Positions 1 through 64,000 of a stretch of DNA of 64,000 nt are shown one piece after another. Source of the DNA: Pontibacter mucosus (GTDB lineage Bacteria; Bacteroidota; Bacteroidia; Cytophagales; Hymenobacteraceae); NCBI RefSeq assembly GCF_003054055.1, contig NZ_QBKI01000008.1, forward strand, positions 124,001-188,000. Reading direction: 5' to 3'. Numbering within the stretch: position 1 is the stretch's first letter; the number at the start of each line of letters is the position of its first letter. The notes below the pieces were generated by a model. It was given only the letters and a program-made list of their open reading frames with translations. It was not told the DNA's origin and made no database searches. Made by a program: the position numbers and the translations under genes.

Positions 1-1336
1 GGGCACCTTCTTTTACGCGCTCGTCAATTTCATCGAGCAGGTCGTCTACCTGGTTTGTGCTCGGACGCACCTCTATCTCTGGGTCCAGCAGGCCGGTTGG
101 GCGGATGATCTGCTCTACAATCACACCTTCGGATTTCTGTATCTCATAGTCGCCAGGCGTGGCGCTCACAAACACCACCTGGTGCATCAGGCTCTCAAAC
201 TCGTTGAAGGTGAGCGGGCGGTTGTCCATGGCCGCCGGCAAGCGGAAGCCATACTCTACCAGTGCCACCTTGCGCGAGCGGTCGCCGCCCCACATGGCGC
301 GCACCTGCGGCACGGTTACGTGGCTCTCGTCTATCACCATCAGGAAATCGTCCGGGAAATAATCAAGCAGACAGAACGGGCGGGCGCCTGGAGCACGGCG
401 GTCGAAGTAGCGGGAGTAGTTCTCAATGCCGGAGCAGTAGCCCAGCTCCCGGATCATCTCCAGGTCGAACTCGGTGCGCTCTTTGATGCGCTTGGCCTCT
501 ACCGGGCGATCCTCCTTCAGGAAATAGTCGTGCTGGGCCACCATGTCGAACTGGATCTCTTTGATAGCCTGGTGCAGCGTGTCCTTGCCGGTCACGAAAA
601 GGTTAGCCGGGTACAGCGTAACCGCTTTCTCGTCCGAGAGCTTCTTACCTGAGACCGGATCGATGCGATGAATGGCCTCCAGCTCGTCGCCGAAGAAGTA
701 TAAGCGGTAGGCAAAATCCGCGTAGGCCGGAAAGATGTCCACCGTGTCGCCTTTCACCCGAAATGTTCCACGTGTGAACTCAGCCTCGGTGCGGCTGTAA
801 AGAATCTGCACAAACGTATAAAGCAGGTTATTGCGGCTATAGCGTTGCCCCGGCGCCAGGTAAATCACGTTCTTGCCAAACTCCTCGGGGTTACCGATAC
901 CATAAATGCACGACACCGACGCCACCACCACAATATCGCGGCGACCCGAAAGCAAAGCCGAGGTAGTATGCAGGCGCAGCTTTTCAATCTCCTCGTTAAT
1001 TTGCAGGTCTTTCTCGATAAACACATCCGAGGAGGCGATATAAGCCTCCGGCTGGTAGTAGTCGTAGTAGGAGATGAAGTATTCGACAGCGTTATCCGGA
1101 AAGAACTGCTTAAACTCGCCGTACAGCTGCGCGGCCAGGGTTTTGTTGTGGCACAGCACCAGCGTGGGCTTGCCGGTGTTGGCAATCACATTGGCCATGG
1201 TAAAGGTTTTGCCCGTGCCCGTGGCTCCCAGCAATACCTGTACAGGCTCACCTTTGTTTATACCTTCTGTAAGTTGAGCGATGGCCTTGGGCTGGTCGCC
1301 TGTCGGCTGAAACTCAGATGTCAGTTTAAAATCCAT
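1..1336 (-). CDS. uvrB: UvrABC system protein B (excinuclease subunit), 3' end outside window
   Basis: Damage-verifying helicase subunit of nucleotide excision repair; it receives damaged DNA from UvrA and recruits the UvrC nuclease. The reverse-strand frame opens at the ATG at 1334-1336 (MDFKLTSEFQPTGDQPKAI) and stays open to base 1, about 445 residues of the usual 660-680. Visible are the N-terminal Q-motif-like GDQPKAI, Walker A GATGTGKT near residue 38, the beta-hairpin tip region with YYDYYQPEAY near residue 92, and the DEAD-type box in MVIDESHV. The C-terminal UvrC-interaction region lies outside. It is a single gene preceded by a 345-bp gap. Identification is secure; only the C-terminus is unseen. 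Confidence 0.97.
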   Translation of the reverse strand, partial: MDFKLTSEFQPTGDQPKAIAQLTEGINKGEPVQVLLGATGTGKTFTMANVIANTGKPTLVLCHNKTLAAQLYGEFKQFFPDNAVEYFISYYDYYQPEAYIASSDVFIEKDLQINEEIEKLRLHTTSALLSGRRDIVVVASVSCIYGIGNPEEFGKNVIYLAPGQRYSRNNLLYTFVQILYSRTEAEFTRGTFRVKGDTVDIFPAYADFAYRLYFFGDELEAIHRIDPVSGKKLSDEKAVTLYPANLFVTGKDTLHQAIKEIQFDMVAQHDYFLKEDRPVEAKRIKERTEFDLEMIRELGYCSGIENYSRYFDRRAPGARPFCLLDYFPDDFLMVIDESHVTVPQVRAMWGGDRSRKVALVEYGFRLPAAMDNRPLTFNEFESLMHQVVFVSATPGDYEIQKSEGVIVEQIIRPTGLLDPEIEVRPSTNQVDDLLDEIDERVKEGA

Positions 1337-1456
1337 TTGTTGATTTTACGGATTAGTAAAGATAAACTATAACATGTAAACTATACTGTAAGTTTACCCT
1401 CTTGCCAATTTATACTTGCCATGGCACAGCGTGTTACGCCACACTTTGGCCACGAA

Positions 1457-1483
1457 AAAAGCCTGTTGCAGAACAACAGGCTT
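1457..1483 (-). terminator. Orphan hairpin terminator upstream of uvrB
   Basis: A 10-bp stem (aagcctgttg / caacaggctt) has the pentaloop cagaa and is followed on the minus strand by a run of six T. No gene ends here: the Kelch gene already has its own terminator at 1625-1658, so this one would end a transcript starting inside 1484-1622, or act as a back-up. Confidence 0.6.
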
Positions 1484-1624
1484 AGTGTACTAAAATTACA
1501 GAAAATTCTTCTCCGGAAAGGGTTTTCAAGCTCCACGCCATCCACACAAAGTATAGCCAGGCTTTAAAGTATACCCTTTACCATACATAACTTCCAGTGA
1601 GCGGTTTAGGTTACGAGTTCCCAT

Positions 1625-1658
1625 AAAAAAGGCAGCCCGAAATCTCTTCCGGGCTGCC
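1625..1658 (-). terminator. Terminator of the DUF4270-Kelch operon
   Basis: A GC-rich stem (ggcagcccg / cgggctgcc) is followed on the minus strand by six T, 24 bases after the Kelch stop codon. Confidence 0.8.
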
Positions 1659-1681
1659 TGAAAGTATAATTTTTTTGCTCG

Positions 1682-13189: not shown

Positions 13190-13229
13190 ATGTTGATGTG
13201 GAAGTATAAAGTATAAAACAAGATGATAA

Positions 13230-19762: not shown

Positions 19763-21346
19763 TTACTTGTTGAGGTCAGGGTTGTTAAGCACTTCTGCCT
19801 GTGGAATCTCAAACGTCAACTCGTCAGAGTCCCATGCAAAAGTTTGACCTGGCAGGAAGATGTGATTCTCACCTCTGGTCACATTAACTTTGTTTCGCTT
19901 AATGGCTAAGTAAGCTTTACCTTCACCCCACAACTCAATTCGAGTCTGCAGCAAAATTTCATCCTTTAGGGCCTGGCCACCAATGCCATTCAGATAAGAA
20001 TCATACTCTGCATAAGCACCTTCCTCAAATCTGTTTTGCATCAGCATCTTCAGAGCATCTTTCGCTTGAGCTTCTTGACCTAATCTTGCGTGTGCTTCAG
20101 CTTTCAGCAGGATCATCTCCTCTATACGCATGTACACGTAATCCGTGATGACATTCCTCTGGCCGCCAATCTTTCTAGCTGGGTCAAAGAACTTATTAAG
20201 TGGCATCAGGTCAAAATCGCCCTCCTCATAGCCATCTTCTTTATAAGCAGCTTCAAGACCACCACCAATTGGATCGAACCAGTTCTTTCTATAGTCATCC
20301 TTACGAATGGCATTATACAAGTTAATATCAATGGTTTTAGGATCTCCAGCCCAAGCATAGCTATAAGTAAAGATATCTATTTGTCCCCACCATGAAACCA
20401 GGTCCAGTCCATTTGCTAATGTGAGGTCTACACCCCACATCCAGCTTGGAGTGGTCACGTTGTTGAATCCTGACTGAGGGTTTGTTAAAGCACCTGTACT
20501 TGGGTTTATTTGAGCATAAAGCTCACCCTTGTTAGTAATGCGATATCCACTTGCTATCAGGTCATCGGTAAGGGTTACGACCTGCTGCAGGTCAGCTTGT
20601 GTGCCTCTGGCTGCCAGCGCATAAGCCAATAAACCTTTTGCCACAGTCTGGTCTATTTGATCTTTAGAGGAGCGGTTAAAGTCTTCCAAGTAGCTGATTG
20701 CCTCTGTAAGATCATCAACGATAAGATTATATACTTCTTCAGAAGTAGCCTTTGGCTGATTCGGAACCTGCGTATTTGTATAAATAGGAAGAATTTTCTC
20801 TGAGCCGGTACCGTATCCTGGAGAATACAATTGAGCAAGATAGAAGTAGGCATAAGCACGCATAGCTTTAGCTTGTCCCATTATATGGCGCTGCAGTGGT
20901 TCTGTCTGCTCAGCATCAGTTCCACCCAGTGCATCGATTACCGTGTTGGCCCCAAAGATGATACGGTAGTAGTATCTCCATGGCATGTAACCTTCGTTCT
21001 GCGTATAGTCCTTCGTGTCCTGATACTGAGCGATACTAGAATACCATCCATAAGTTGCACCAGCCAGTACCATGTCCGAGGAAAGCATATCCATGTAAAT
21101 ATCCCAACTCTTCTGGCCAAAGTCATCGTGCTGCAGGTCTGTACCGCCTGTGCCGGTGTTATACATGGTAGCGTATAAACCTGCAATGTTACCATTCAAA
21201 AGCGATGGATCTTTTGCTGCAGCGTCAGCAAGCTGCTCAGGCGATATTTCGTCTCCAGAGGGCTTTACATCCAAGTACTCTTTTTCACAACTGCTTAGCG
21301 AAAGAGTGAGAGCAGCCGCTCCTATTATATATAAATTTTTCTTCAT
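19763..21346 (-). CDS. SusD/RagB family nutrient-binding lipoprotein (pair 1)
   Basis: 527 residues. The lipoprotein signal peptide MKKNLYIIGAAALTLSLSSC is followed by EKEYLDVKP, the standard SusD opening. TPR-like helices such as QAKAMRAYAYFYLAQLYSPG (near 145) and EEMILLKAEAHARLGQEAQA (near 410) and the C-terminal ELWGEGKAYLAIKR (near 475) are family hallmarks. It caps the SusC channel at the cell surface and binds glycan or peptide. It starts 14 bases after its SusC partner. No glycosidase or sulfatase lies nearby to suggest a substrate. Composition is AT-richer than that of flanking genes. Confidence 0.93.
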   Translation of the reverse strand: MKKNLYIIGAAALTLSLSSCEKEYLDVKPSGDEISPEQLADAAAKDPSLLNGNIAGLYATMYNTGTGGTDLQHDDFGQKSWDIYMDMLSSDMVLAGATYGWYSSIAQYQDTKDYTQNEGYMPWRYYYRIIFGANTVIDALGGTDAEQTEPLQRHIMGQAKAMRAYAYFYLAQLYSPGYGTGSEKILPIYTNTQVPNQPKATSEEVYNLIVDDLTEAISYLEDFNRSSKDQIDQTVAKGLLAYALAARGTQADLQQVVTLTDDLIASGYRITNKGELYAQINPSTGALTNPQSGFNNVTTPSWMWGVDLTLANGLDLVSWWGQIDIFTYSYAWAGDPKTIDINLYNAIRKDDYRKNWFDPIGGGLEAAYKEDGYEEGDFDLMPLNKFFDPARKIGGQRNVITDYVYMRIEEMILLKAEAHARLGQEAQAKDALKMLMQNRFEEGAYAEYDSYLNGIGGQALKDEILLQTRIELWGEGKAYLAIKRNKVNVTRGENHIFLPGQTFAWDSDELTFEIPQAEVLNNPDLNK

Positions 21347-21360
21347 ATTAATCAGTCAAA

Positions 21361-24300
21361 TTAAATTTTAACTTTTAAGCCTGCTGTAAAGGTAGATAGC
21401 GGAGAATAGCGGTAGGTGCTTGAGCTACCTGCTTCTGCAGTTGAGGGGTTAAAGCCTTTACGGGCTGTGTTAATCCAAAGATTATCACCAGATAACCAAA
21501 TAGATAGGCCACCAATACCATACTTGCTTACGAAGTTGCCAGGTACAGTATATGTTAGACGCACATTGTTCAGCACCAGGAAGTTTGCCTTGGTTAGGAA
21601 GCGCGTTGAAGATGAGGCTACGTTTGTATCGTATCCGCGTGAAAGGCGAGGCACATCTGTAATATCGCCTTCTTTCTGCCATCTATCCATAATGTCCTCG
21701 TGCCAGTTGTTACGCCCAGCTAGGTCGTTATGCATCAGGTTAGCATAAGCACCATCATAAGCATAACCTCCAAAGCTATACAGCATCTGAGCACTCAGGT
21801 CGAAGCCTTTATATCCAGCAGATATGTTAAAGGCGCCACGCACATCTGGAATAGCAGACTTCCCGTTGTACTTCAGCGTAGCAGCTGAATATGTCTTGGT
21901 AGTAGCTGTCTTCAGGTCACCCTCGTTTACATCAGGATTGTTGTACAGGTAGTCAGACAGGTTTGCAATTCCTTCGCCCTGATCCAGCGCTCCGTTACCG
22001 TTAGCATCGTTGTAAACAACATTCCACATACCTCTACCATCCTGTGGATCTACACCAGCCCACTCGCGCAGGTAAAAATCATAGATAGAATGCCCCTTAG
22101 ACCAAGCATACTGACCTTGCACATCTATTGGCTTAGGTTTACCTGTTACAGGATCAAGAGGCATCTCTGTGATTTTATTAGAGAAAATCTCTCCATTAAC
22201 CCCTATGCTTAAGCGGTAGTCTTTTCCTTGGAATACATCACCAGTCACATCAAATTCTAAACCTTGGTTTCTCAGGTTGCCGTCATTCACTTGAATCAAC
22301 GCATAACCAATAGATGGGCCTAGTCTTCTCTCGAAAATTAGGTCTGTTGTGTTCTTGATGTAGTAATCAATAGAACCATAAATACGGTTATTTGCGACTT
22401 CGAAATCAATACCTGTTTGGAACTGCTTGGACGTTTCCCAAGTCAGATCCTGATTGCCTTTTGTAGAGAAGGCAAAAGCTGGGTTATCATTAAGGTTATT
22501 TATGTTATAAATATCATAACCCGGATAGAAACCTACACCAGCTTGATCACCAATCAGACCATAGCTAGCCTTCAACTTCAGCATGTCAAAGATGTTCTGA
22601 CTGCTCATGAAGTCTTCACTGGTAATCATCCAACCAGCACCAATTGAACCGAATGTGCCCCACTTGTCTTTTCTAAAGCGAGAAGAACCATCTCTTCTGA
22701 TAGTAGCAGATAGGAAATATTTATTATCGAAGTCGTAGTTAACCTGACCGAAGTAGCTTTCAAGGGTGTACTGATGTGTAGCCCCGGTAGATGGGTTATG
22801 AATCACCGCATTGCTCAGATCTTCGATGTTAGGGTCAACTAGATTTTGCCCAGAAGCAGTTTGAACATTACGCTTCCAATCTGTTACTTCATGGGCAGCA
22901 AGCGCCTCCACGTTATGTAAACCGAAAGTTTTATTGTAGCGCAGTAGGTTCAGCAGGTTATAGGAGAAAACTTCTGTACCACGGTGGAAAAGGCTACCAT
23001 TCTGTGTAGCTGAGCTACCGTAGTATTTGTTACCCCTGTTTACAAATTTGTTGTTGAAATATTGCGCACCTAGCCTATTCTCCAGTGTCAGGCCCTCTGC
23101 AATATTCACGTTCAGGCTCGCATTACCGTTTAACTCGTTACGGTTACTTCGGTTGGTATCATAAGTAGCATCTGCAATAGCGTTAGTAAGTGCACCAAAG
23201 CCACGGCCTACACCATAGTCATACTGATTTCCACCAAAGATTGGGTCTGTGATAAAATTACCTTCTGCATCTCTACTAAATAGCGGGTAGATAGACGGAA
23301 TATTATCTACAAACCAGAAGATGCTTCCAGAGTCTTCGCTCTGCCCATTATTGTTTGTCTCAGAACGAGAGTAGTTAAAGTTAAAGTTACCAGTCAGCCA
23401 GCTGTTAATCTCCTGGTTTAGATTCAAACGCGCAGTAAGACGCTCGTAGTCAGAATTGATTAGATACCCTACGTCCTTCAGATAGCCAAAAGAGGAGTAA
23501 TAATGTGTTTTATCAGAAGAACCACCAAACTTCACATTTACCTCAGAACGATTAGAGTTTTGGAAGCCATAGTCTTCCCAGTTCTCAGGGTTATATTTTC
23601 TTTCTACACCAGGTCTAACAGTTCTAGTCACTGGGTCTATAATTTCAGCAGCAGTACCACTCCAGAGGTTGTACTTAGGATTAATTCCTGAGCTTGAAAA
23701 CAATGAAGAATTTGCATAAGTTGTCGCACGGGCATCATCGTAGCCACCTGCAGCTACACCATAGTTGTATAAGCTCTCCCAGGTCAAACCAACATACTGC
23801 TCAGGAGATTTGATGGTCTGGTAGCGTGGAAGCAAAGCTTGGTTCGTACCAAAGTTGGCATCAACCTCAATGTAGTTGTCTTTACCTCTACCTGTCTTAG
23901 TTGTGATAACAATAACGCCATTTGCACCTCTAGAACCATAGATGGCTGTAGCTGCAGCATCTTTTAGTACTGTAGTGGACTCAATATCAGCAGGGTTTAT
24001 AGAGTTAATGCTGCCATTAAAAGGAACACCGTCTACTACATATAATGGATCACGGTTACCGTTCACAGAACCGATACCACGAATACGTACCGTCGCCTCA
24101 GTACCTGGCTGACCGCTCGTATTAACAATTCTCACGCCTGAAACCTCACCGGCAAGTGCCTGAGAAACGTTTGACACACTTTTGGACTCCAGTCTCTCCG
24201 CACTCACCACTTTCGCCGTACCTGTGAAGGACTCTTTTGTTGTGGTAGAGTAACCTACTACTACAATCTCTTCCAGTGCTTTGGCATCCTCAGATAGAGA

Positions 24301-24582
24301 CACATTTATAGTGCTTCTGCCTGACACGTTTACCTCCTGAGCCACATAACCCAAGAAGTTAAAAATCAGTGTTGCATCTCCAGAGGGCACATTTACAGAA
24401 TAATTGCCCTCAATCCCCGTAGTAGTACCTGTTGTGGTACCTTTCACAATGACAGCAACTCCAGGTAGCGGTTGTCCACTACTGGCATCGGTCACCTTAC
24501 CCGTAACAGTTTGGCTTTGCGCCCACGCCTGATTCACAAGCGCAAGAAGCATCACCAAACTAAATAATAGAACTTTTCTCAT
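21361..24582 (-). CDS. SusC/RagA family TonB-linked outer-membrane protein (pair 1)
   Basis: 1073 residues. A signal peptide ends NQAWAQ, followed by a carboxypeptidase-regulatory-like domain (residues about 22-100, GKVTDASSGQPLPGVAVIVK), a TonB-dependent plug (about 105-230, GQPGTEATVRIRGIGSVNG, PLYVVDGVPF, ATAIYGSRGANGVIVITTK), then a barrel to the C-terminus (STFTAGLKVKI). It imports oligomers with the downstream SusD, driven by TonB. The 5' end and about 300 bases upstream are near-duplicates of those of the second SusC gene, while much of the barrel differs, which suggests tandem duplication with later divergence of the binding region. Confidence 0.95.
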   Translation of the reverse strand: MRKVLLFSLVMLLALVNQAWAQSQTVTGKVTDASSGQPLPGVAVIVKGTTTGTTTGIEGNYSVNVPSGDATLIFNFLGYVAQEVNVSGRSTINVSLSEDAKALEEIVVVGYSTTTKESFTGTAKVVSAERLESKSVSNVSQALAGEVSGVRIVNTSGQPGTEATVRIRGIGSVNGNRDPLYVVDGVPFNGSINSINPADIESTTVLKDAAATAIYGSRGANGVIVITTKTGRGKDNYIEVDANFGTNQALLPRYQTIKSPEQYVGLTWESLYNYGVAAGGYDDARATTYANSSLFSSSGINPKYNLWSGTAAEIIDPVTRTVRPGVERKYNPENWEDYGFQNSNRSEVNVKFGGSSDKTHYYSSFGYLKDVGYLINSDYERLTARLNLNQEINSWLTGNFNFNYSRSETNNNGQSEDSGSIFWFVDNIPSIYPLFSRDAEGNFITDPIFGGNQYDYGVGRGFGALTNAIADATYDTNRSNRNELNGNASLNVNIAEGLTLENRLGAQYFNNKFVNRGNKYYGSSATQNGSLFHRGTEVFSYNLLNLLRYNKTFGLHNVEALAAHEVTDWKRNVQTASGQNLVDPNIEDLSNAVIHNPSTGATHQYTLESYFGQVNYDFDNKYFLSATIRRDGSSRFRKDKWGTFGSIGAGWMITSEDFMSSQNIFDMLKLKASYGLIGDQAGVGFYPGYDIYNINNLNDNPAFAFSTKGNQDLTWETSKQFQTGIDFEVANNRIYGSIDYYIKNTTDLIFERRLGPSIGYALIQVNDGNLRNQGLEFDVTGDVFQGKDYRLSIGVNGEIFSNKITEMPLDPVTGKPKPIDVQGQYAWSKGHSIYDFYLREWAGVDPQDGRGMWNVVYNDANGNGALDQGEGIANLSDYLYNNPDVNEGDLKTATTKTYSAATLKYNGKSAIPDVRGAFNISAGYKGFDLSAQMLYSFGGYAYDGAYANLMHNDLAGRNNWHEDIMDRWQKEGDITDVPRLSRGYDTNVASSSTRFLTKANFLVLNNVRLTYTVPGNFVSKYGIGGLSIWLSGDNLWINTARKGFNPSTAEAGSSSTYRYSPLSTFTAGLKVKI

Positions 24583-24900
24583 AAAGTTAGATTAGATTGA
24601 TTGGTAAAATAGTTTATGGTTGTTTCTCAAATATAGGTCGATGTTATAACACTTCCCACAGCCATTTTAAAAAAACATTCCAAAAATTTAACCTAACCTT
24701 AATTTTGCCGCAAAAGGCAAGCTTGTTGCATATTCAACCAACTGTATATAAACCACTTACCTCACCCTACTAATCAATTTGGCATTTTTCTTATACAGCT
24801 TCAAAAACCTGTGTCAAAGAAAATATTCAGACATTCCGCTATAGGAAATTGCTGTTACAACTTCCTTTGACCTTGAGGTTTACTAACATACTGTATTAAG
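24583..24900 (-). repeat. Duplicated SusC leader, copy 1, with candidate promoter
   Basis: This stretch matches 29942-30260 closely by eye, including the block acttcccacagccat (24651-24665), the run through gcaagcttgttgcatattca, ctgtatataaaccacttac, and the dyad attccgctataggaaat (24833-24849). On the minus strand TATATTTG (24628-24635) fits the TAnnTTTG box, though no TTG sits 19 bases upstream; the conserved GGCTGTGGGAAGT may replace it. Copy number two, same orientation. Confidence 0.75.
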
Positions 24901-25243
24901 TTTGGAATTACACTTTTAAAGCATCTAGACTTAACTATATTTAGTTAATGTTAGTCTACTTTGAAATGCATGAATTATTCATCAGCAGTATTAATCATCC
25001 CTTATTGTAAGGGGCTTTTTTATAAAAGTGTTTCATTAAATAATTCTTTATTTAACACTAGTATTTCACTTTTCTGATTCTCTTATTGCTTGATCTAGAA
25101 TGTCAGATTTCACTGCAAATAATGTATGATCATTACTGATAAGACACAAAAAAGCGCCTTAGTGAAATTCTAAGGCGCTTTAAAACTTACACCTCTATAA
25201 ATTGGTAGAGGTTTTTTTACTTGTTACATTAAGTATCAAGGCA
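24901..25243. other. Intergenic remainder between the two SusCD pairs
   Basis: AT-rich, no gene seen. It holds a small hairpin (ccctta / taaggg near 24997-25012) followed by seven T on the plus strand, and the SusD terminator at 25148-25181. Confidence 0.45.
25148..25181 (-). terminator. Terminator of SusCD pair 2
   Basis: A 12-bp perfect stem (aaagcgccttag / ctaaggcgcttt) with a 7-base loop, followed on the minus strand by T residues, 63 bases after the SusD stop. Confidence 0.8.
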
Positions 25244-26767
25244 TTACAGTGGGTTCTGTTTCATACCCGGATTTCTGTTAGCATTTAACTCATCCTGTGG
25301 AATCAACCACTGCCAGCGGTTATCGCCTGCTGGAACTGAAAACAAGTTATTTACAAGAGTCGCATCGTGGTTAGCACCAGTTCTGTCAAGTGCGCTATTC
25401 GTGCGCTTCAGATCTAAGAAGCGGAAACCTTCGCCCCACAGCTCAATACGACGCTGCAACAGGATTTCATCAATTAGATCCTGCCCAACCAGTTCAATTA
25501 GTGTGTACTCCTCGTCACGGGCCTCCATTAACTCAGCCAGTACCAGTGCAGCATCCACGCTTCTTCCAAGGCGAGCAAGCGCCTCCGCCTCAACCAAGTA
25601 CATCTCAGCAGCTCTCATGTACGGTACGTCACCAATACTACTGGCTCCACCGTCAGCCATAAACTTTCTGTTCATATAGGGCTTAGCCGAAAAGTTGGAC
25701 GGGATTACAAATCCATTCACATCATAACCTGTAGTCTTGCCGTCAGCATCCTTCACGGGCTCTGGCTTCGGATCCCAAAGCTGCTTACGCACATCAGTAT
25801 CCCCAATCTCAGCATACAGCTTGCTGTTGATGGCTTTAGGGTTTGACCTGATGTTAGTAGAACTAAAGTTAGCCGACATATAGGCGAAGAAAGAGTAAAA
25901 ATATGTTGTCTGGTCAGCAATTTGATCACTGCCCCACATCCACTCGCCATTCTCCACGTTGTTGAAGCCTGCCAGATAATCTTTAGTGCTCATCAACGAG
26001 TAAGCTTGGCGTGCCTCATTTGCGTACTGAGCAGCAGTTTCCCAGTCCTGCATCGTAAGGGCTACTCGTGCCTTGATACCTTTGACAACGTCAATATTGA
26101 AATGAGACTTAGCATTACGACCTTCTGGCAATAGCGAAATCGCCTCATCGAGGTCTTTATTAACCTGAGCGTATACTTCTTCTACAGATGCACGAGGTTG
26201 GCCCTCTGTTGTATTCTCCGTCAAAATTGGCACACCAGCCTGTTCATTAGTGCCTTTAGTAGCATCATAGCGCTCCGCAAAGATCTGCACTAGTTGGTGG
26301 TGAGCCCAAGCCCTGTAAGCCAGTGCCTGCCCCTTAATCTCCTCTTTATCCGCATCAGAACCATCCACATTATCAATGTTGTTGATGATCATGTTTGCGT
26401 TAGCTATTAGCTTATAGTAGAACCTATAGGTGAAGTAGACTGTAGTGGCATTTGCATTGCGGTGTGTTAGCCATTTATAGGTGTTATTGAACCAGCCATT
26501 ACCGGCTGCAGTCATCACCACGTCTTCACCCAGCATATCCATATTAATCATTACTGACCCCTGACCAGCTTGATCTTGGGTACTGTATTGCATAAACATG
26601 GCTCTGTGGATACCATTAAGGGCAGCCCAAGCGTTGGCAGTAGTCGTAAACACTGATTGTTCAGAAACAGCATCCGTTGGCTGTGTCTCCAGGTAGTCCT
26701 TTTCGCAGGAGGAGAAAACCAGCATGCAGGCTGCAAGCGAACTATATAATACTTTTTTCATTTTCAA
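25244..26767 (-). CDS. SusD/RagB family nutrient-binding lipoprotein (pair 2)
   Basis: 507 residues, lipobox FSSC at about residue 20 followed by EKDYLETQPTDAVSEQ. SusD helices are seen in GQALAYRAWAHHQLVQIFAE (near 150) and RAAEMYLVEAEALARLGRSV (near 385), and the family C-terminal signature is RRIELWGEGFRFLDLKRTNS (near 437). It is clearly related to the pair-1 SusD but well diverged. It starts 3 bases after its SusC partner, so translation is probably coupled. Confidence 0.93.
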   Translation of the reverse strand: MKMKKVLYSSLAACMLVFSSCEKDYLETQPTDAVSEQSVFTTTANAWAALNGIHRAMFMQYSTQDQAGQGSVMINMDMLGEDVVMTAAGNGWFNNTYKWLTHRNANATTVYFTYRFYYKLIANANMIINNIDNVDGSDADKEEIKGQALAYRAWAHHQLVQIFAERYDATKGTNEQAGVPILTENTTEGQPRASVEEVYAQVNKDLDEAISLLPEGRNAKSHFNIDVVKGIKARVALTMQDWETAAQYANEARQAYSLMSTKDYLAGFNNVENGEWMWGSDQIADQTTYFYSFFAYMSANFSSTNIRSNPKAINSKLYAEIGDTDVRKQLWDPKPEPVKDADGKTTGYDVNGFVIPSNFSAKPYMNRKFMADGGASSIGDVPYMRAAEMYLVEAEALARLGRSVDAALVLAELMEARDEEYTLIELVGQDLIDEILLQRRIELWGEGFRFLDLKRTNSALDRTGANHDATLVNNLFSVPAGDNRWQWLIPQDELNANRNPGMKQNPL

Positions 26768-26770
26768 AAA

Positions 26771-29700
26771 TTAAAGGGTAACGTTCAAACCAACTGTGTA
26801 GATACGAGCAGGTGAATATGTATTGGAAGTAACACCTGAGTAAGACTGATTAACGTTCATGCCATCACGTTTTGAGAACAGACCAAGGTTCTCTCCTGAA
26901 GCGAATACGCTGGCATTCTTTAGGAACACCTTAGAAGTGATGTTTGAAGGCAGTACGTAGTTCAGGTTTACAGATCTGATGTTCAGGTAAGAAGCATCAA
27001 TCAACCAACGGTCTGACTGCGCATTATACTGCGTAGCAGCCGTCAGGTCCATGCGAGGCACATCTGTTACGTCGCCTGCGTTTTGCCAGCGGTTCAGAAT
27101 ATCTGTATGCAGCGCACCACCTTGCGTACCGGCGTTCATCAGAGAAGCATAATTCGCATCGTATACTTTGCCGCCCACCTGGTAAGTCAGTAACACAGAT
27201 AGTGACAGGTTTTTGTAAGCGAAAGTGTTTGTGATACCACCTGCAAAATCAGGAATAGCAGAACCCGCGTAGTGGTACTTGGCACCGTTAGCCTGCGTTG
27301 TTACTCTTTTACCGTCCAGATCATATGCGTTTTTATCTTCTGGGTTATCAGCGATAAACACACCGTTACCGGTATTCGGGTCTACACCATACCAGTCGCG
27401 CAGCCAGTAATCATATACTGATCTACCAACCATATACTTCTTAGTACCGCTGATGATCTCTTCCTGGCCTTCTGGCAGTTGCTTAATCTCATTCTTGTAA
27501 GACGAAACGTTCACGCTCACATTCCATGTAAAGTCTTGCGCTTTTACAGCATCAGCAGATATTTGAGCTTCCACGCCAGTGTTGGCCATAGTACCAACGT
27601 TTTGCCATCTGGTTAGCACACCGCTTGAAAGTGGGAGCGGCACTTGAAACAACAGGTTCTCAGACTCTCTCTTGAAATATTCTACACTACCATTAATTCT
27701 GCCGAACAAGTCGAACTCAACACCAACGTCATAGCTATTGTTAGATTCCCACAGCAAGTCTTGGCTGGCAAGGCTTTCCTGAAGGAAGCCTGGCTCAGCA
27801 GCGTTATTGTAACCTAAGCCATAAAGCGCCTGCCAACCGTAGTAGTTGTTTGCACCGCTTGAGGTTAAGATAGCGTCATTGCCAACCTGCCCATAAGATC
27901 CTCTCAGTTTCAACATATCAACCCAAGCTGGCATAACGATGAAATCTTCTCTATCAAGGCGCCATGATGCACCTACTGACCAGAAATCACCCCATCGTAC
28001 ATCTTGGTAGAACCTTGATGATCCATCGCGGCGGTAAGACCCAGATACCGTATATTTATCATCAAATGTGTAGTTCAGACGGGAGAAGTAGCCTTCTGTT
28101 CTATAAAGATCCGTGCGTGAGTCAAGGCTATTAGTTGTTGTAAAGTTACCCAACTCAGTGTTACCTTCTACAATTAGGCCCTGACGCATGCCGTACAGGT
28201 ATTTATATTGATAATTGTAGTTTTCGTGCCCTAACAACACCTCTACATAGTGCCTGTCGTTGAAAGTCTTAGCATAGTTCAACAACTGGTTCAGGTTGTA
28301 GCTAGTTGTAGTTGAGCTGGTGCGGTTTGCTCTGCCGGCTGGCGCGCCATCCCCTACCTTATTGTTGTCATACTCTGCTGCCAAGTAGTTAGAAATATCT
28401 ACACTAAGGTTAGTAGTGAATTTAAAATCCTTTAGGAAGGTAATTTCACCGTAAGTTCTAGCACTTAACACATTGCGATTGTACAGATTGTTGTTCCACA
28501 TGGTCTCTGCCACTACGTGGCGGCCTACACTTGCACTGCTCCCACGATTTGGCAAGCCTAGTTCAGACAAATTGCCGTAGTCGTAGATCTTGCCACCGTT
28601 CTGGTCCAGTAGGTAAGCACCTGTAACAGGATCGTGGGCATATACAGGATAAATAGGGCCCATGTTACGAGCAAAGAAGAATGGGTTAACATAACCTGTA
28701 CTACTTCCTGTATTTGCTTGGTTAGATTCAGTGATAGTACCTGCTATGTTCAGACCTGTTTTAAACCAGTCTGTAGCCTGTGTGTTTACATTTACACGAC
28801 CAGTGAATCGCTCATAGTCCGACTTAATCACAAAGCCTTTTTCATTCAAGTAACCTAAAGAAACAAAGTAATCGCTCTTATCATTACCACCGCTGAAGTT
28901 TAAGCCATAGTCGCTTCGGCTACCGTTACGCTCAATTGGGTCAAACCAATCCAAGTCATCTGCATAAAGTAGTCTTGCCTCAGGATTGATTTTGCCATCT
29001 AGCCCAACAATTTCATTATCAGCAACATTAAAAGGGTTATAACCTAATATACCCTTCACTCCGTTAGTTGCCGCAAGGTTGGCCTCGTCCATAGTTTTAG
29101 GATCCTCAGTGGCATATACAAGGGAGTTCCGTTGTGCTTCCCAAACCAACGGATAATACTCATAGGCATTTACACGATCATACTCCTTCAGGCCTCTGTT
29201 TGTAACACCCTGAGAAATCTTCAGGTTGATCTGGTTGCGGCCACTCTTACCTTTTTTGGTTGTAACCATTACCACACCGTTAGCGGCACGAGCACCGTAG
29301 AGTGCTGAAGAAGAGGCATCTTTTAGAATGGAGATACTTTCGATGTCGTCTACGTTCAGGTTCGCAATGCTGCCTGAGTAAGGGACACCGTCTACTACAT
29401 ATAGCGGATCGTTGGAAGAGTAAACAGAACCGATACCACGAATACGGATATCAGGACCAGAACCTGGCTGTCCGCTACCTGAGTTTGCCTGGACACCCGC
29501 AGCCTGACCAGCAATGGCATTTGTAATGTTAGTTACTGGACGCTGTGCAATTTTTTCACTTGAAATTTGCGCTGCAGAACCGGTAAAAGAACCTTTATCA
29601 GCAGTACCATAGGCAACTACCACCACTTCTTCAAGTTGCTTGTCATCTACCCCTAAACTTACGTTTATGGTTGATGCATTGTCAATTCCGCGCTCTACTG

Positions 29701-29941
29701 TTTGGTAGCCAATAAAGCGAAAAATCAAGGTATTACTTCCGGCAGGTACGTTAATGCTGTAATGGCCATCCACCCCGGTTGTAGTTCCTACGGTTGTTCC
29801 TTTCACAATGACGGCAACACCTGGCAATGGTTGTCCACTGCTGGTATCGGCCACCTTACCTGTTACAGTTTGGTTTTGCGCCCACGCTTGGTTCACAAGC
29901 ACAAGGAGCATCACCAAACCTAATAATAGAACTTTTCTCAT
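26771..29941 (-). CDS. SusC/RagA family TonB-linked outer-membrane protein (pair 2)
   Basis: 1056 residues. Same architecture as pair 1: signal peptide ending NQAWAQ, carboxypeptidase-regulatory-like domain (GKVADTSSGQPLPGVAVIVK), plug (GQPGSGPDIRIRGIGSVYSS, PLYVVDGVPYSGSI, SSALYGARAANGVVMVTTKK) and a barrel ending in ARIYTVGLNVTL. The first ~70 residues are nearly identical to pair 1, whereas the extracellular-loop-rich barrel differs. Expected to import a different but related oligomer with the adjacent SusD. Confidence 0.95.
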   Translation of the reverse strand: MRKVLLLGLVMLLVLVNQAWAQNQTVTGKVADTSSGQPLPGVAVIVKGTTVGTTTGVDGHYSINVPAGSNTLIFRFIGYQTVERGIDNASTINVSLGVDDKQLEEVVVVAYGTADKGSFTGSAAQISSEKIAQRPVTNITNAIAGQAAGVQANSGSGQPGSGPDIRIRGIGSVYSSNDPLYVVDGVPYSGSIANLNVDDIESISILKDASSSALYGARAANGVVMVTTKKGKSGRNQINLKISQGVTNRGLKEYDRVNAYEYYPLVWEAQRNSLVYATEDPKTMDEANLAATNGVKGILGYNPFNVADNEIVGLDGKINPEARLLYADDLDWFDPIERNGSRSDYGLNFSGGNDKSDYFVSLGYLNEKGFVIKSDYERFTGRVNVNTQATDWFKTGLNIAGTITESNQANTGSSTGYVNPFFFARNMGPIYPVYAHDPVTGAYLLDQNGGKIYDYGNLSELGLPNRGSSASVGRHVVAETMWNNNLYNRNVLSARTYGEITFLKDFKFTTNLSVDISNYLAAEYDNNKVGDGAPAGRANRTSSTTTSYNLNQLLNYAKTFNDRHYVEVLLGHENYNYQYKYLYGMRQGLIVEGNTELGNFTTTNSLDSRTDLYRTEGYFSRLNYTFDDKYTVSGSYRRDGSSRFYQDVRWGDFWSVGASWRLDREDFIVMPAWVDMLKLRGSYGQVGNDAILTSSGANNYYGWQALYGLGYNNAAEPGFLQESLASQDLLWESNNSYDVGVEFDLFGRINGSVEYFKRESENLLFQVPLPLSSGVLTRWQNVGTMANTGVEAQISADAVKAQDFTWNVSVNVSSYKNEIKQLPEGQEEIISGTKKYMVGRSVYDYWLRDWYGVDPNTGNGVFIADNPEDKNAYDLDGKRVTTQANGAKYHYAGSAIPDFAGGITNTFAYKNLSLSVLLTYQVGGKVYDANYASLMNAGTQGGALHTDILNRWQNAGDVTDVPRMDLTAATQYNAQSDRWLIDASYLNIRSVNLNYVLPSNITSKVFLKNASVFASGENLGLFSKRDGMNVNQSYSGVTSNTYSPARIYTVGLNVTL

Positions 29942-32785: not shown

Positions 32786-33153
32786 GGTTGGTTTTATTAG
32801 GTTTAGGTAGTTTAGTTTAAGGTTCTGTCTTCAAAATAAAGTATAAACAGAGAAGTTAACAAAAAACCGCCTGCAGGAACTGACGCCTTTGGGCAGTTTT
32901 TATACTTCCTGGGCAGGCAAAGTATAGACAGTAAAGTATAAACAGGTTAACTATACTTGGCCGGGAGCGGATTTATACTTAGGAACATGGAGCGACATCA
33001 GATACGCTTGCAGCGTGTTTTAAACAGCAAATGCTAAAGCCTCCGAAGCATTCATCGGCAAACATTACCGAAGGACTAAAAGTATAGATTTCAAAGTATA
33101 AACACGCGGTTTATACTTTGAAATCTATACTTGCTGCCGAAGCCCGCTATACT
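32786..33153. repeat. Intergenic cluster of eleven AAGTATA/TATACTT copies
   Basis: Between 32839 and 33154 I count eleven copies of the heptamer in both orientations, the densest cluster in the window, four of them in the 24-bp hairpin at 33080-33132. No gene is seen. The gap carries the S9 peptidase promoter region (right-hand side of its ATG) and the amidase terminator. Confidence 0.7.
33080..33132 (-). terminator. 24-bp perfect hairpin built from AAGTATA copies, downstream of the amidase gene
   Basis: Arms 33080-33103 and 33109-33132 are exact reverse complements around acgcg. Each arm holds two AAGTATA units, one at its outer end. On the minus strand it is followed by TTTTAG, 22 bases after the amidase stop, so it probably terminates that transcript; the T run is short. 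Confidence 0.6.
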
Positions 33154-34827
33154 TTAGGACTTCTTCTTTTTAGTAAATGCCATACTTGGGTGCTGCTCCT
33201 CGTGCGGCGTTATACTTTGGTAGAAGCTGGCAAAGCGCAGCAGCTCGGCCTCGCCAAAGAGTTTGCCCATAAACGTGATGGTGGTTGGCATGCCATTTTT
33301 CTGAAAACCGTTTGGCACCACCACGCACGGATGGCCCGTCAGGTTCGTCACGATGAGGTTGCTGCTGGCGAAGGAGGGGCTGATGTACACGTCCACGTCC
33401 TGGAGTTTCTCCTGCATCTGCTGCACCAGCAAGGTGCGCACGCGCTGCGCCTGCAGGTACTCCACGGCAGGTATAAAACGGGCAGTGCGGAAGATGTTGG
33501 GCCAGGCGTTTTTATGCTGCGCCACCAGGAGGCTGTCGCGGCCGCTACGGGTAAGCTCGTCAAAGGCCGCAGCCCCCTCCACCGAAATGGTCAATAGCAG
33601 GTCGCTGGCCGGTAGGTCGGGCAGGGAGATCGGCACCAGCTCTACGCCAGCCTTGCAGAGCGCCTCCAGCGCAGCCTGGTCGTTTTCCTGAAAGCCATAC
33701 TTCTTGGCAAAGTCCTCCTTCAGGTAGCCTACGCGTAATTTCTTCGGGTTTATACTTGGCGTATAGTTAAAGGGCGCATCGTACACCGATTGGTCTTTCC
33801 CGTCAGGCCCGTAGATGGCGTTGAACACAATGGCGCAGTCTTCGGCGGTGCGGGCAATCGGCCCGATCTTATCCATAGACCAGCTCAGGGCCATGGCGCC
33901 GTGGCGACTCACGCGGCCGTAAGTAGGCCGGAGTCCCGTGGTACCACAAGCCGTAGAAGGCGAAACAATGGAACCGAGGGTTTCCGTGCCGATGGCATAG
34001 GGCAACAAACCAGCTGCCACCGCCGCGGCAGAGCCCGCCGAAGAGCCGCTGGAGCCTTTGCTCACATCCCATGGAGAGCGGGTTTTGCCGCCGTACCACA
34101 CATCGCCCATGGCCAGGGCACCCAGCGTCAGTTTGGCCACCAGCACCCCACCGGCGTCCTGCAGGCGCTGCACTACCGTCGCGTCCTCGTCCAGCACCTG
34201 GTCTTTGTAAGGCGTGGCGCCCCAGGTGGTTTTATACTTGCGCGTGGAGAGCAAATCCTTCACCCCAAACGGGATGCCGTGGAGCATGCCTTTATACTTG
34301 CCAGCTTTGATCTCCTGGTCGGCTTGGCGGGCCTGCTGCAGTGCCAGCTCCTCGGTAAGGGAGGTAACGCACTCCAGCGCCGGACCATACTTCTTCAGGC
34401 GGTCGAGGTAGAACCTGGTGAGTTCCTCGGAGGTGATTTGCTGGGTGCGCACCAGTTCGGCCAGTTGCGGAATAGTATAAAACGCCAGTTCCTCGCGCTT
34501 TTTCGGAAGTTTTACGTTTTGCGGCCGCTCCACCTCAAAGGCAGATTTACCAGTAGGGAAAGTATAACCCACCGGAATGGGGTTGAACATCAGGGCCGGA
34601 GGAACGCTGTTGGGCAGGTTTTGCTGGCGCAGCGCCTCGTAGCTTTTTTTAAAATCTTCCAGCTCCGAAACGGTGGAGTCGAGCTGTGCCTCCGTAAAGT
34701 TCAGGCCGATAAGCTTCTGTGCCTCCTGCAGCACATTCACCGTAATTGCATTATCTGCCACTCTGGCCACAAAAGCCCCTGACATAAAGCAGGCGACGCC
34801 AAGTAGGGCTATGGTTCTGTTTTTCAT
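33154..34827 (-). CDS. Secreted amidase (amidase-signature family)
   Basis: 557 residues from the ATG at 34825-34827 (MKNRTIALLGVACFMSGAFV), chosen because it begins a hydrophobic export signal; the frame open to 34947 adds 40 non-signal residues. The Ser-cisSer-Lys triad is visible: Lys in GIPFGVKDLL near 200, cis-Ser in KGSSGSSAGSAAA near 280, nucleophile Ser in GTETLGSIVSPS near 305. It resembles GatA-like hydrolases acting on unknown amides; the exported form argues against a role in tRNA amidation. Single gene with a hairpin after the stop. Confidence 0.9.
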   Translation of the reverse strand: MKNRTIALLGVACFMSGAFVARVADNAITVNVLQEAQKLIGLNFTEAQLDSTVSELEDFKKSYEALRQQNLPNSVPPALMFNPIPVGYTFPTGKSAFEVERPQNVKLPKKREELAFYTIPQLAELVRTQQITSEELTRFYLDRLKKYGPALECVTSLTEELALQQARQADQEIKAGKYKGMLHGIPFGVKDLLSTRKYKTTWGATPYKDQVLDEDATVVQRLQDAGGVLVAKLTLGALAMGDVWYGGKTRSPWDVSKGSSGSSAGSAAAVAAGLLPYAIGTETLGSIVSPSTACGTTGLRPTYGRVSRHGAMALSWSMDKIGPIARTAEDCAIVFNAIYGPDGKDQSVYDAPFNYTPSINPKKLRVGYLKEDFAKKYGFQENDQAALEALCKAGVELVPISLPDLPASDLLLTISVEGAAAFDELTRSGRDSLLVAQHKNAWPNIFRTARFIPAVEYLQAQRVRTLLVQQMQEKLQDVDVYISPSFASSNLIVTNLTGHPCVVVPNGFQKNGMPTTITFMGKLFGEAELLRFASFYQSITPHEEQHPSMAFTKKKKS

Positions 34828-35038
34828 GCTGCTAGGATTTGAGTTTCCGAATATAAAGGTTTTAGAACATAAAAGGCAGATTTCTGCAGCCTGAGTTTCC
34901 CGCCTCTTTCCAACGAATACCGACAAGACTAAGTGGACGGTACACACCGCTTAAATTTTGTAAAAGTTATACTTTGCCTTACCCCTGAAATAAATTGCCT
35001 AAAAGTGTTAGTTTGCAACAGCAAAAACCAATCTACCT

Positions 35039-37709: not shown

Positions 37710-38091
37710 CGCATCAGGCCTGTCGCACCCCATGCTGGTGTACGATGGCGACTGTAGTTTCTGTAAGTACTGGGTAAACAGATGGCGCCGCAAAACGGGC
37801 GACAAGGTGAAGTATACTTCCTTTCAGGAGCTCCCGGAGGAGTTTCGCGGGACCACGCATGCGCAGTTTCGCAGGTCGGTGTACCTCTTTACAACCTATG
37901 GGCAGCGGCTGCACGGCGCTGCGGCCGTGGCTGCCCTGCTGCACCTGAGTGGCCACAGCACCTGGAACTGGCTGTACCACCGCCTGCCGCTGGCCGGCAA
38001 AGTGGCGGAGGCTGGCTACAGGATCGTGGCAGACAACCGTGACTTTTTCTTCAGACTCACGAAGCTATTCTTCAGAGACAATCCCCGATAA
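37696..38091 (+). CDS. DUF393 (DCC family) thiol-disulfide oxidoreductase-like protein
   Basis: 131 residues starting at ATG 37696 (MTKTNASGLSHPMLVYDGDC), which gives the canonical opening; the longer frame only adds residues from inside the DUF2892 gene. The DxDCxxC signature is VYDGDCSFCKYWVNRWRR, with two Cys like a thioredoxin CxxC site. RSVYLFTTYGQRLHGAAAVA and the LYHRLPLAGKVAEAGYRIVA segment fit the family. A redox or lipid-linked role is possible, unproven. Confidence 0.87.
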   Translation: MTKTNASGLSHPMLVYDGDCSFCKYWVNRWRRKTGDKVKYTSFQELPEEFRGTTHAQFRRSVYLFTTYGQRLHGAAAVAALLHLSGHSTWNWLYHRLPLAGKVAEAGYRIVADNRDFFFRLTKLFFRDNPR

Positions 38092-47693: not shown

Positions 47694-47853
47694 AGAAAGT
47701 ATAAAGTATAAAAAAGTGGCACAAGATACGGCACGGCAACCTGAGCCCAAGCACCTGTCCTCCTATTTTTATTTTATCGCCTTATACTTTGATAAAGGGC
47801 ACTTCTTAGGCAAAAACGCTGTTGAACTTCTGCAAAACAGAAAGGCATCACCC

Positions 47854-50182: not shown

Positions 50183-51364
50183 TTATTTTGCCCGGAGCAG
50201 CGGGCGCATGGAAAGCAGCCCCAGCAGCGGCCCGACTGCCAAAAGTATAAACACGCCCCGCAAAGGCATTACGGAGAGCAGGTAACCCGTAAGCTGTATG
50301 CTGACAATCGTAATAGCGAAGCCGATGGAAGTGACCACCGTGAGGGCCGTACCCACCAGTTGTGGCGGTGCGGCGCGGGCCGTAAGCGCAGAAAACTGCG
50401 GTGAGTCGCCGGCCACCACCACGCCCCAGAACAGCAGGAAGGGCAACAGCAGTTGGGGTAGCTGCAGCACCCACACGCTTGCCACGCAGCACAGCCCCGA
50501 CAAGAGCAACTGCACAAAGGCCACACGCCCGCTTCCCCAGCGCTGCGACAGGTAACCGCCCGCCACACAGCCTACAGCCCCGGCCGCTATCACCAGGAAG
50601 CAAAACACCGACAGCTGCCCCGGTGCCCACTCCGGAAAGGCGTAGGCAAGTATAACCGGCACAAAGGCCCACAAAGTATAAAGCTCCCACATGTGCCCAA
50701 AGTAGCCCAGCGCGGCCGCCCGCAGCTCCCCTACCCGGAATACCCGTAGCATATTGCCCACCTCAAACCGGGCACCCTTACTCAGGTAGGGTCCGTTGGG
50801 CACGAGCAGGTACATCGCCAGGCCACCGGCGGCGGCAAGTATACTTATCGCCAGCAGCATCGTCTGCCAGGGCAGCGACGCCCCCAGCCCCCGCAGCAAG
50901 TATGGAAAGGCAGTGCCCAGCACCAGTGCGCCCACCAGGTAACCGATGGCTTTGCCCAGCCCGCCACTGTACCAACTGGCTGCTATCTTCATACCCACCG
51001 GGTAAATGCCCGCCAGCAAAAACCCTGTAATGCCGCGCAACAGCAGCACGCCGGTTATACTTGTGGCGCCTGCCAGCAGCACATTGGCCAGCGCCCCCAG
51101 CAGCGAGCACAGCAGGAAAAGCAAACGCGGCGATATCCTGTCCGCCAGGGAGAAAAAGGCAAAGCAGAGCGTGCCAAGTATAAATCCCAGCTGCACGGAG
51201 GAAGTTAGCAGGCCGAGCGCCTCGCCCTTTAGCCCCAGCGATGCCTGCAGCTCTGGCAGCACTGCGTTTCCGGCAAACCACAGCGAGGTGCCTGCAAACT
51301 GCGAGAGCACAATGACGGGTAGTATGCGGGCAGGTGCTGGTGCCGCTATGGCGGTTTTGGTCAT
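50183..51364 (-). CDS. Major facilitator superfamily transporter
   Basis: 393 residues, about 12 predicted helices. The MFS pattern is seen in LGLLTSSVQLGFILGTLCFA (near 47), the loop FSLADRISPRLLFLL (near 70), and GITGFLLAGIYPVGMKIAAS (near 109) with Gly-rich helix 5. The C-terminal half repeats the pattern (GAVGCVAGGYLSQRWGSGRV). Substrate unknown. Single gene. Confidence 0.88.
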   Translation of the reverse strand: MTKTAIAAPAPARILPVIVLSQFAGTSLWFAGNAVLPELQASLGLKGEALGLLTSSVQLGFILGTLCFAFFSLADRISPRLLFLLCSLLGALANVLLAGATSITGVLLLRGITGFLLAGIYPVGMKIAASWYSGGLGKAIGYLVGALVLGTAFPYLLRGLGASLPWQTMLLAISILAAAGGLAMYLLVPNGPYLSKGARFEVGNMLRVFRVGELRAAALGYFGHMWELYTLWAFVPVILAYAFPEWAPGQLSVFCFLVIAAGAVGCVAGGYLSQRWGSGRVAFVQLLLSGLCCVASVWVLQLPQLLLPFLLFWGVVVAGDSPQFSALTARAAPPQLVGTALTVVTSIGFAITIVSIQLTGYLLSVMPLRGVFILLAVGPLLGLLSMRPLLRAK

Positions 51365-61711: not shown

Positions 61712-61733
61712 ACTTTTAAAAACTTTCTTTAAC

Positions 61734-62947: not shown

Positions 62948-62964
62948 CTACAGGCTATTCCTTC

Positions 62965-63013
62965 CAAACTTTCTAACTTATACCTTTCTAACTTCCCAAC
63001 TTTTTAACTTCTC
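62965..63013. repeat. Degenerate CTAACTT pyrimidine tract
   Basis: Tandem imperfect units of the type tttctaactt over about 49 bases, akin to the tract at 51584-51618. Confidence 0.5.
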
Positions 63014-63106
63014 CAGCCGCCTCCCGTAATAGTTCTAAAATTCAGAAAAGCGGCTGCGTTACCTTCTGACTCACAGCGTTTTCAGTACCTGTGAGCGTTT
63101 ATACTT

Positions 63107-63199
63107 TGGGCGTGTCCTTTCGCTTGCGCGAGCAGGCCGGGCTTTCGCCTCTACTCCTCGCTCACGCTGCGGGGTGCCGGCTCTATCCCTCACGCAATC
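63107..63199. repeat. GC-rich structured intergenic element starting gggcgtgtcc
   Basis: The order gggcgtgtcc, gcttgcgcgagc, ggccgggc, cctcgctcacgctgcgggg, ctatccctcacgca resembles a widespread Bacteroidota intergenic repeat as I remember it. It has at least two potential hairpins. Single copy in this window. Confidence 0.45.
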
Positions 63200-63231
63200 G
63201 CAATTTCGGAAGTTTTCAGCACAATTCAGGC

Positions 63232-64000
63232 ATGAAACAAACTTTACCACAATCGTTTGCGCAGAAAATTAACACCTTCATCGCAGCTTTTGCAAGCAAA
63301 AACTTCCGCTGTGGGGCTATTTCCAGCAGGAATTTCCTGCGCCATACTTACCTGGAAAGTATAAAGCCAGCATATAAGTCAGGCTTGGCAGGGGTTTTTA
63401 TACTTCTGCTGCTTCCGTTTTTGGCCGCCGCCCAGCTGCAGGAAACCTTCTCCGACGGCAACTTCACCCACAACCCTACCTGGAGCGGCGATGTCAATAG
63501 CTTTATCATCAACCCACAAAACCAGCTCCAATCTAGCGGCCCAGCGGTAACCGGCACCGTCCTGCAGCTTACCACTTCCTCGCAGGCAGCCGTGGGCACC
63601 ACCTGGGAGTTTTGGGCCAACCTCAGGCTGGCCACCTCCGCCAGCAATTACACCGACGTGTATCTGATTTCCGATAAAGAAGACCTGAAAGCCCCTGACG
63701 TGAACGGCTACTTTGTGCGCATCGGCAACACCGCCGACGAGGTGAGCCTCTACCGCAAAGACGCCGGCAAGGCCGCTACTATCATCATCAACGGGCAGGA
63801 CAAAACGGTGGCCACCAGCAACAACGTGGTGCGCGTGCGGGTAACCAGAAGTATAAATTTCGAATGGGAGCTAAGTATAGATGTTACCGGCACCGGCCAA
63901 AGCTACATGAGCCAGGGCACCGCCACCGACGCCACGCATAGGCGCTCTTTATACTTTGGCGTGCTGCTGCGCTATACTTCGGCCAATAGCCAGCGCTTCT
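63232..64000 (+). CDS. Large secreted surface protein, 5' part only
   Basis: Open from ATG 63232 to the end of the window (256 codons seen). About 55 leader residues precede a hydrophobic export segment (GLAGVFILLLLPFLAAAQ, near 58-75), after which QLQETFSDGNFTHNPTWSGD begins a beta-rich domain. The rest (VGTTWEFWANLRLATSASNY, DVYLISDKEDL, GYFVRIGNTADEVSLYRKDA) resembles the N-terminus of multi-domain Bacteroidota surface proteins that often carry lamin-tail and type IX secretion C-terminal domains, but the C-terminus is not visible. At least five AAGTATA/TATACTT copies lie in the seen part. Confidence 0.75.
   Translation, partial: MKQTLPQSFAQKINTFIAAFASKNFRCGAISSRNFLRHTYLESIKPAYKSGLAGVFILLLLPFLAAAQLQETFSDGNFTHNPTWSGDVNSFIINPQNQLQSSGPAVTGTVLQLTTSSQAAVGTTWEFWANLRLATSASNYTDVYLISDKEDLKAPDVNGYFVRIGNTADEVSLYRKDAGKAATIIINGQDKTVATSNNVVRVRVTRSINFEWELSIDVTGTGQSYMSQGTATDATHRRSLYFGVLLRYTSANSQRF

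Follow-up and report, generated by a model that had tools for sequence, protein, structure and literature searches.

Here we describe a seven-base DNA word, AAGTATA (TATACTT on the opposite strand), that recurs throughout a 64,000-nucleotide stretch of the Pontibacter mucosus genome (hereafter the window; positions 124001–188000 of contig C8 of the source genome, which comprises 5,231,950 bases and has the handle G000). Many Pontibacter species carry thousands of copies of one word, spelled by lineage. An over-represented exact word on both strands, one spelling per lineage with dialects that track clades, genomes in mixed states, word-specific conservation and low density on a plasmid and islands were all observed, and together these are the expected product of biased DNA exchange. 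AAGTATA and its sister spellings stand, in our judgement, an even chance of being lineage-specific self-recognition words for the exchange of chromosomal DNA, most likely as uptake sequences for transformation. A sequence-specific DNA-binding protein other than a pilin would prefer fragments that carry the word and so raise their rates of uptake and recombination; words born by point mutation would then spread, mutated words would be restored, and genomes with mixed spellings would represent dialect switches in progress. We infer the existence of this reader, its location outside the cytoplasm and its tie to transformation.

The window contains 63 copies of AAGTATA and 68 of TATACTT, and this total of 131 ranks first among all heptamers counted over the 64 kb. 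An earlier note on this DNA had estimated about 130 copies in both orientations; the exact count agrees, and the phenomenon is larger than was claimed, with 5911 + 5907 = 11,818 copies in the whole genome (reversed-letter control, 169 + 164 = 333). A Markov comparison, which the same note had suggested, also indicated enrichment: 464 kb of this genome hold 1152 copies, against 203 expected under an order-3 model (5.7-fold) and 595 under an order-4 model (1.9-fold), the latter being trained on DNA that itself contains AAGTATA. The core of the word is AAGTAT, followed by A and less often by G, with a soft preference for A ahead and AA behind. AAGTATG/CATACTT is the most frequent one-base neighbour in the window (47 copies), as expected from the earlier remark that this variant is common and that the core may be AAGTAT.

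Dialects were surveyed in 50 Pontibacter genomes (G000 and 49 relatives) at one locus of 14–19 kb per genome, around a TPR gene present in 50/50. The recurring top heptamers were AAGTATA, AACTATA (as in Pontibacter populi) and AGGTATA (as in P. virosus); the AGGTATA form extends to AGGTATAG. Taking 0.75 words per kb as the threshold, mostly at this single locus, we labelled 18 genomes AAG, 13 AGG, 4 AAC, 3 AAG+AAC, 1 AAG+AGG and 11 none, with G023/G024/G036/G064/G069 and G025/G027/G068 as wordless clades; G007 (11 AGGTATA in 14 kb), G019 (0.57) and G033 (0.62) are borderline. In a tree built from the proteins of the same locus (support only by the Shimodaira–Hasegawa-like approximate likelihood ratio test, SH-aLRT), a supported clade of seven unites the AAC with the AAG+AAC genomes, and a supported clade of twelve contains all AGG genomes but one of the 13. 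The labels require 10 changes on this tree, against a mean of 27 when shuffled, and none of 200 shuffles was as low. The dialects thus follow phylogeny. AAGTATA and AACTATA occur together in G026, G065 and G032, and high densities of both were found in more DNA of G065 and G026. Spelling also switches at some homologous sites; from G032 to G017, for example, 5 of 31 AAGTATA sites read AACTATA, none AATTATA and 2 AAATATA (small numbers).

Among 36 relatives within the genus, AAGTATA was 1.3 to 38 times as frequent as its reversed-letter control. Among 291 genomes of the order, of which 6 are Pontibacter, the degenerate form ARSTATA reached 5 to 12 times control in four worded Pontibacter genomes; elsewhere in this set the ratio did not exceed about 2.2 (G087, 2.2; G229, 1.8), and the same-family genera g24 and g25 gave 1.2–1.5. 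Counts per genome rank among the highest, with 11,818 words in G000 and 20,730 ARSTATA in about 4.1 Mb of G065. Across 78 named loci from outside Pontibacter (3.5–21 kb), only the CA repeats of L043 and L082 outscored the Pontibacter virosus word (z 11.3), and TCCGTAA in L032 followed with z 9.3.

Wordless genomes are larger (11 of 50, median 5.8 Mb) than the remaining 39 (median 4.6 Mb), with a Spearman correlation between word and genome size of −0.79 over the 50 genomes, uncorrected for kinship. Only four independent pairs could be formed, of which about 3.9 of 4 point in this direction (P = 0.125, not significant). Larger wordless genomes would fit a loss of selectivity. A search for other words in wordless genomes (14–39 kb each) gave nothing clear, the only hints being CTCCGGAG in G025 and TATATA in G069. 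The palindrome CTCCGGAG occurs 14 times in 39 kb of G025 (L187 and L195; no heptamer word) against 0.9 expected, possibly as a HIP-like word (HIP, highly iterated palindrome) or in hairpin stems; high numbers of TCCGGA occur in G002, G033 and G068 too. On the second contig of the wordless G002 (C2:1-20000; L235), 20 kb carry 14 AGGTATA and 9 AAGTATA, a higher AGGTATA density than at the host locus (8 in 19.4 kb).

The word is maintained against mutation. In 168 kb aligned between G000 and G062 (93.5% identical), G062 keeps 280 of the 342 words of G000 unchanged; among the 62 altered ones, 40 are one base off, 15 are two to four bases off and 7 contain gaps. Words are thus mostly gained and lost by point changes. 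Counted in both directions, substitutions within AAGTATA occur at 0.39 of the flank rate (143/4669 versus 1753/22343, P = 4e-31), compared with 0.93 for composition-matched permutations and 0.98 for pooled one-letter neighbours; AAGTATG lies at 0.63, and some single neighbours look conserved on small numbers (ATGTATA 0.51, AACTATA 0.54). Retention among relatives, proposed earlier as a check, is a feature of the word itself, and it is similar in open frames (0.42) and outside them (0.37). Other pairs gave own-word ratios of 0.42 (G020/G013), 0.17 (G067/G005), 0.35 (G016/G063), 0.38 (G016/G059), 0.49 (G010/G014), 0.39 (G030/G066) and 0.79 (G017/G060), with controls of 0.84–1.15 across pairs; the two pairs that share G016 are not independent. 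In wider comparisons the ratio was 0.73–0.96 in the AAG clade (1.01 for G019), 0.28–0.63 in the AGG clade and 1.11–1.26 in the wordless sister clade, and in the wordless pair G064/G024 leftover AAGTATA gave 1.64, from only 19 words.

Codon use does not account for the copies within genes. Shuffling synonymous codons 100 times, with each protein and its codon counts preserved, gave 58 ± 6 copies (maximum 72) in the called genes of G000, where the actual sequence has 536; in those of G020, a second species, the shuffles gave 44 ± 6 and the actual sequence has 339. Codon bias is thus no explanation for the coding copies, as the earlier note had argued. The non-cognate AGGTATA is also mildly in excess in G020 genes (88 versus 43 expected, maximum 60). 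All six frame and strand classes contain words, with a slight sense excess in G000 (297 sense, 239 antisense). Density in G000 is 5.1 per kb outside called genes and 1.5 per kb inside, by a home-made gene caller whose coding fraction (0.73–0.75) is probably too low. Spacers between divergent genes (4.4 per kb in G000, 2.3 per kb in G020) are poorer in words than spacers between convergent genes (5.9 and 6.9 per kb), and orientations are mixed, so that the promoter-like −7 element once considered for this word finds no support. More generally, the word might have arisen as a side effect of codon choice, of promoters, of biased mutation or of a small repeat that spreads, as some clusters in look-alike intergenic repeats and hairpin loops and the hexamer tandems of the AGG dialect could suggest; we regard this as very improbable in view of the codon shuffles, the spacer densities, the unconserved pooled neighbours (0.98) and the depletion of this AT-rich word from low-GC DNA. 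In 5-kb bins ordered by G+C, the word occurs at 0.8 per kb below 0.46 (2 bins), then at 1.46 (13 bins), 2.08 (42 bins) and 2.38 per kb (90 bins), and at 2.29 per kb above 0.56 (13 bins), and is thus rarer at low GC despite its own AT-rich composition.

Within the window, the distribution and local arrangement of the words can be summarized in five features:

1..64000, both strands: dispersed AAGTATA, 131 copies (63 on the plus and 68 on the minus strand), from a list of all positions.
19763..29941, minus strand: word-poor stretch with two SusD-like and two SusC/TonB-receptor-like genes, from word positions, G+C and profile matches.
32839..33154, no strand assigned: cluster with the highest word density of the window, 11 copies in both orientations within about 320 bases, from word positions and open frames.
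13202..13215, plus strand: tandem word pair with 7-base spacing, from word positions; further pairs at 47697 and 61069.
37810..37819, no strand assigned: AAGTATACTT, two opposite-strand words with a common TATA; second case at 50837.

The densest cluster occupies the spacer between the called genes 30380-32785 (S9-type peptidase) and 33154-34947, and overlap of opposite-strand words through a shared TATA is frequent in G000, in G020 and in the AACTATA dialect. The window also encodes a metK protein with 91% identity to those of P. virosus (L011) and Pontibacter populi (L012), and a search of its 64 kb against Rfam at gathering thresholds gave 0 matches.

Copies had been described as dispersed over the whole window, inside and outside genes. 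Both locations hold; an even spread does not, since the 10.2 kb of 19763–29941 contain 4 words, whereas the remaining 53.8 kb hold 127. The G+C of this SusC/SusD stretch is 0.44, against 0.54 in the remainder, and it was presumably acquired from elsewhere. Three closed genomes have second contigs that are likewise word-poor. For G001, 60 kb of the 116-kb contig gave 11 words (0.18 per kb versus 1.27 for the genome); for G020, the whole 73.8 kb gave 20 (0.27 versus 1.74); and for G019, 80 kb out of 204 kb gave 36 (0.45 versus 0.82), 20 of the 36 lying inside one 20-kb piece. The G020 contig encodes a relaxase, TraG and TraM and is therefore a conjugative plasmid. The G001 contig encodes a transposase and an AbiEii-type gene; it also encodes, at L224:4465-5259, an acetyltransferase with a match to PF00302, the family of chloramphenicol acetyltransferases. 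A scan of three proteins from the G019 contig showed nothing plasmid-specific. Only 3 words lie in the roughly 15 kb of a mobile island in G020 (L214:1-15000), which encodes an ISL3 transposase, a D5-type protein and an HsdM methylase of type I and has a G+C of mostly 0.41–0.49.

Scarcity on plasmids bears on an explanation modelled on cyanobacterial HIP1, in which a methyltransferase coupled to a bias in mismatch repair makes and maintains the word, the dialect shifting when the enzyme is replaced. Cyanobacterial HIPs have alternates, losses and methyltransferases of matching specificity (PMC4390886). A process that acts on all cellular DNA should mark resident plasmids too, however, and AAGTATA, AACTATA and AGGTATAG are not palindromic. 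Methyltransferases of PF01555, the one such family surveyed, are present in 31 of 50 genomes; this patchiness, with absence from 12 word-rich genomes (G003, G011, G013, G017, G022, G030, G032, G035, G060, G061, G062 and G066), excludes this family as the matching enzyme. We consider this explanation unlikely.

A recombination hot spot of the Chi type, furthering its own conversion, would likewise keep the word conserved and leave plasmids and islands out. Chi words known elsewhere show a strand bias. In 20 stretches of 20 kb from the G020 chromosome, the counts by GC-skew strand are 396 and 343, at most a slight excess, which leaves polar signals such as Chi, FtsK-orienting polar sequences (KOPS) or segregation signals unsupported and makes a Chi-like origin improbable. 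The polar form of the segregation role listed among the earlier candidates finds no support in the same counts. Among the roles then proposed, the dialects, the conservation and the scarcity on a plasmid and islands speak most for an uptake or recombination signal, whereas the promoter and the polar segregation or Chi roles are not supported; a methylation target, for which one methyltransferase family was surveyed, or a nucleoid-protein site keeps a low probability.

The words could instead be binding sites of an abundant chromosome-organizing protein, kept by selection on chromosome structure while specificity drifts between lineages. Their presence all round the G020 chromosome (16 to 56 per 20 kb) would suit such a protein, as would their clusters in the same orientation. 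Word pairs within 30 bases in G000 number 178 on the same strand and 62 on opposite strands, with about 36 same-strand pairs expected from density, and spacings peak at 7, 8, 11, 14 and 19–22, mostly outside genes. Part of this clustering stems from repeat-like spacers; some clusters lie in hairpin loops and some in intergenic repeats that look alike by eye (contig C1 near 23279 and 200749). Helical phasing was weak, with peaks but spectral scores under 2 and no clear period. Some lineages are wordless, and conservation of thousands of sites both inside and outside genes (0.42 and 0.37) would need strong selection at each site. This explanation is somewhat less unlikely than a methylation bias, but we still doubt it. 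In the AGGTATAG dialect (G010; L190–L194 and L182), tandem hexamer arrays with spacings of 6, 12, 18 and up to 54 were seen, and these seem to expand by slippage.

We then consider the machinery that uptake of DNA would employ. ComEC and DprA, as well as HHH_3 proteins, were found in 50/50 genomes. Exactly two of the 50, G021 and G009, carry stops in both ComEC and DprA; among the matches listed, the double-HHH protein is also fragmented in G021, and the seven core genes of the dialect locus are unbroken in both genomes. Joint loss of ComEC and DprA, with the double-HHH protein, points to a single dispensable process in which they take part. Long frames are slightly less frequent in G021, at 40 per 100 kb versus 44–51, so that a general decay or error rate may have contributed there. 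G017 has a shorter ComEC frame of 561 amino acids, with no stop. PF07075 is non-discriminating (50/50, no stops among the matches listed).

Several observations weigh against a self-recognition word read during uptake. Wordless lineages retain unbroken ComEC and DprA, so that the presence of these genes does not discriminate; on the self-recognition reading, uptake would have been kept there and its specificity lost. The words show no decay in G021 (0.75) or G009 (0.35) despite broken ComEC and DprA, and hence either the gene loss is recent or the words are independent of these proteins, whereas G019, with unbroken competence genes, does show decay (1.01). The pair G017/G060 (0.79) and several distant pairs (0.95–0.96) show weak conservation of the word. 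Type IV pilins (PF07963) were detected in 0/50 genomes versus 8/14 control genomes, with a model of 27 positions that can miss odd pilins, making a reader of the ComP or ComN type unlikely; PF18942 (DUF5689), named in a Riemerella screen, is present in 22/50, absent from G000 and does not match the dialects, and no reader thus emerged from the pilin and PF18942 surveys of the 50 genomes. Same-orientation clustering is not predicted by simple uptake drive, and recent acquisition might by itself explain why the plasmids and islands are word-poor.

Comparison with published systems places the Pontibacter word closest to uptake sequences. DNA uptake sequences (DUS) of Neisseriaceae fall into eight dialects, one genome having two in equal numbers (PMC3630211), and integrated conjugative elements stand out through an atypical DUS distribution (PMC7371117). 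Like DUS, the Pontibacter word is short, has thousands of copies on both strands and lineage-related spellings, and includes two-dialect genomes; like both DUS and the uptake signal sequences (USS) of Pasteurellaceae, it is in great excess in and between genes, has spellings that track phylogeny, is under-represented on mobile DNA and occurs alongside competence genes. It is 7–8 bases long rather than 10–12, belongs to a different phylum, reaches per-genome counts among the highest and has no detected type IV pilin to serve as a ComP-type receptor, and we therefore describe it as working like DUS without classing it as one. USS also have divergent spellings, their accumulation being explained by mutation and uptake bias (PMC12616744, PMC1939737); their predicted receptor is a type IV minor pilin, and none was detected in Pontibacter. 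HIP1 and the alternate HIPs are likewise very frequent words with replacements and losses among relatives (PMC4390886), but are palindromes linked to methyltransferases; the Pontibacter words are not palindromic. TAACTGA heptamers of marine Beggiatoaceae are reported to form sets of intergenic direct repeats, 169 in one genome (PMC4679880); the Pontibacter heptamer is sometimes in direct tandem too, but is mostly single, also genic and divided into dialects. Natural transformation of Riemerella anatipestifer, another member of the Bacteroidota, requires ComEC, DprA and an HHH protein (PMC8459023), and relatives of all three are present in Pontibacter; PF18942 is patchy in Pontibacter, and the accessible part of that account describes no uptake word.

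Among the open-access papers listed in our survey, no report of a Pontibacter word or uptake sequence appeared. Genome-wide uptake words with dialects are, to our knowledge, established only in Neisseriaceae and Pasteurellaceae, where the known or predicted readers are minor pilins. It is a little less than an even chance that Pontibacter has an independently evolved Bacteroidota system of DNA self-recognition, in which a non-pilin reader, a word of 7–8 bases and biased exchange would combine with one-base changes of spelling to give a species barrier. If so, this would be a third, unrelated case of uptake words, without detectable pilins, and would mean that self-words evolve repeatedly; it would also suggest a novel type of sequence-specific DNA reader. 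About 50 related species, among them users of three spellings, mixed genomes and wordless ones, would make it possible to measure how dialects switch and how this affects gene flow, and the word could be used as a marker of foreign DNA in Pontibacter.

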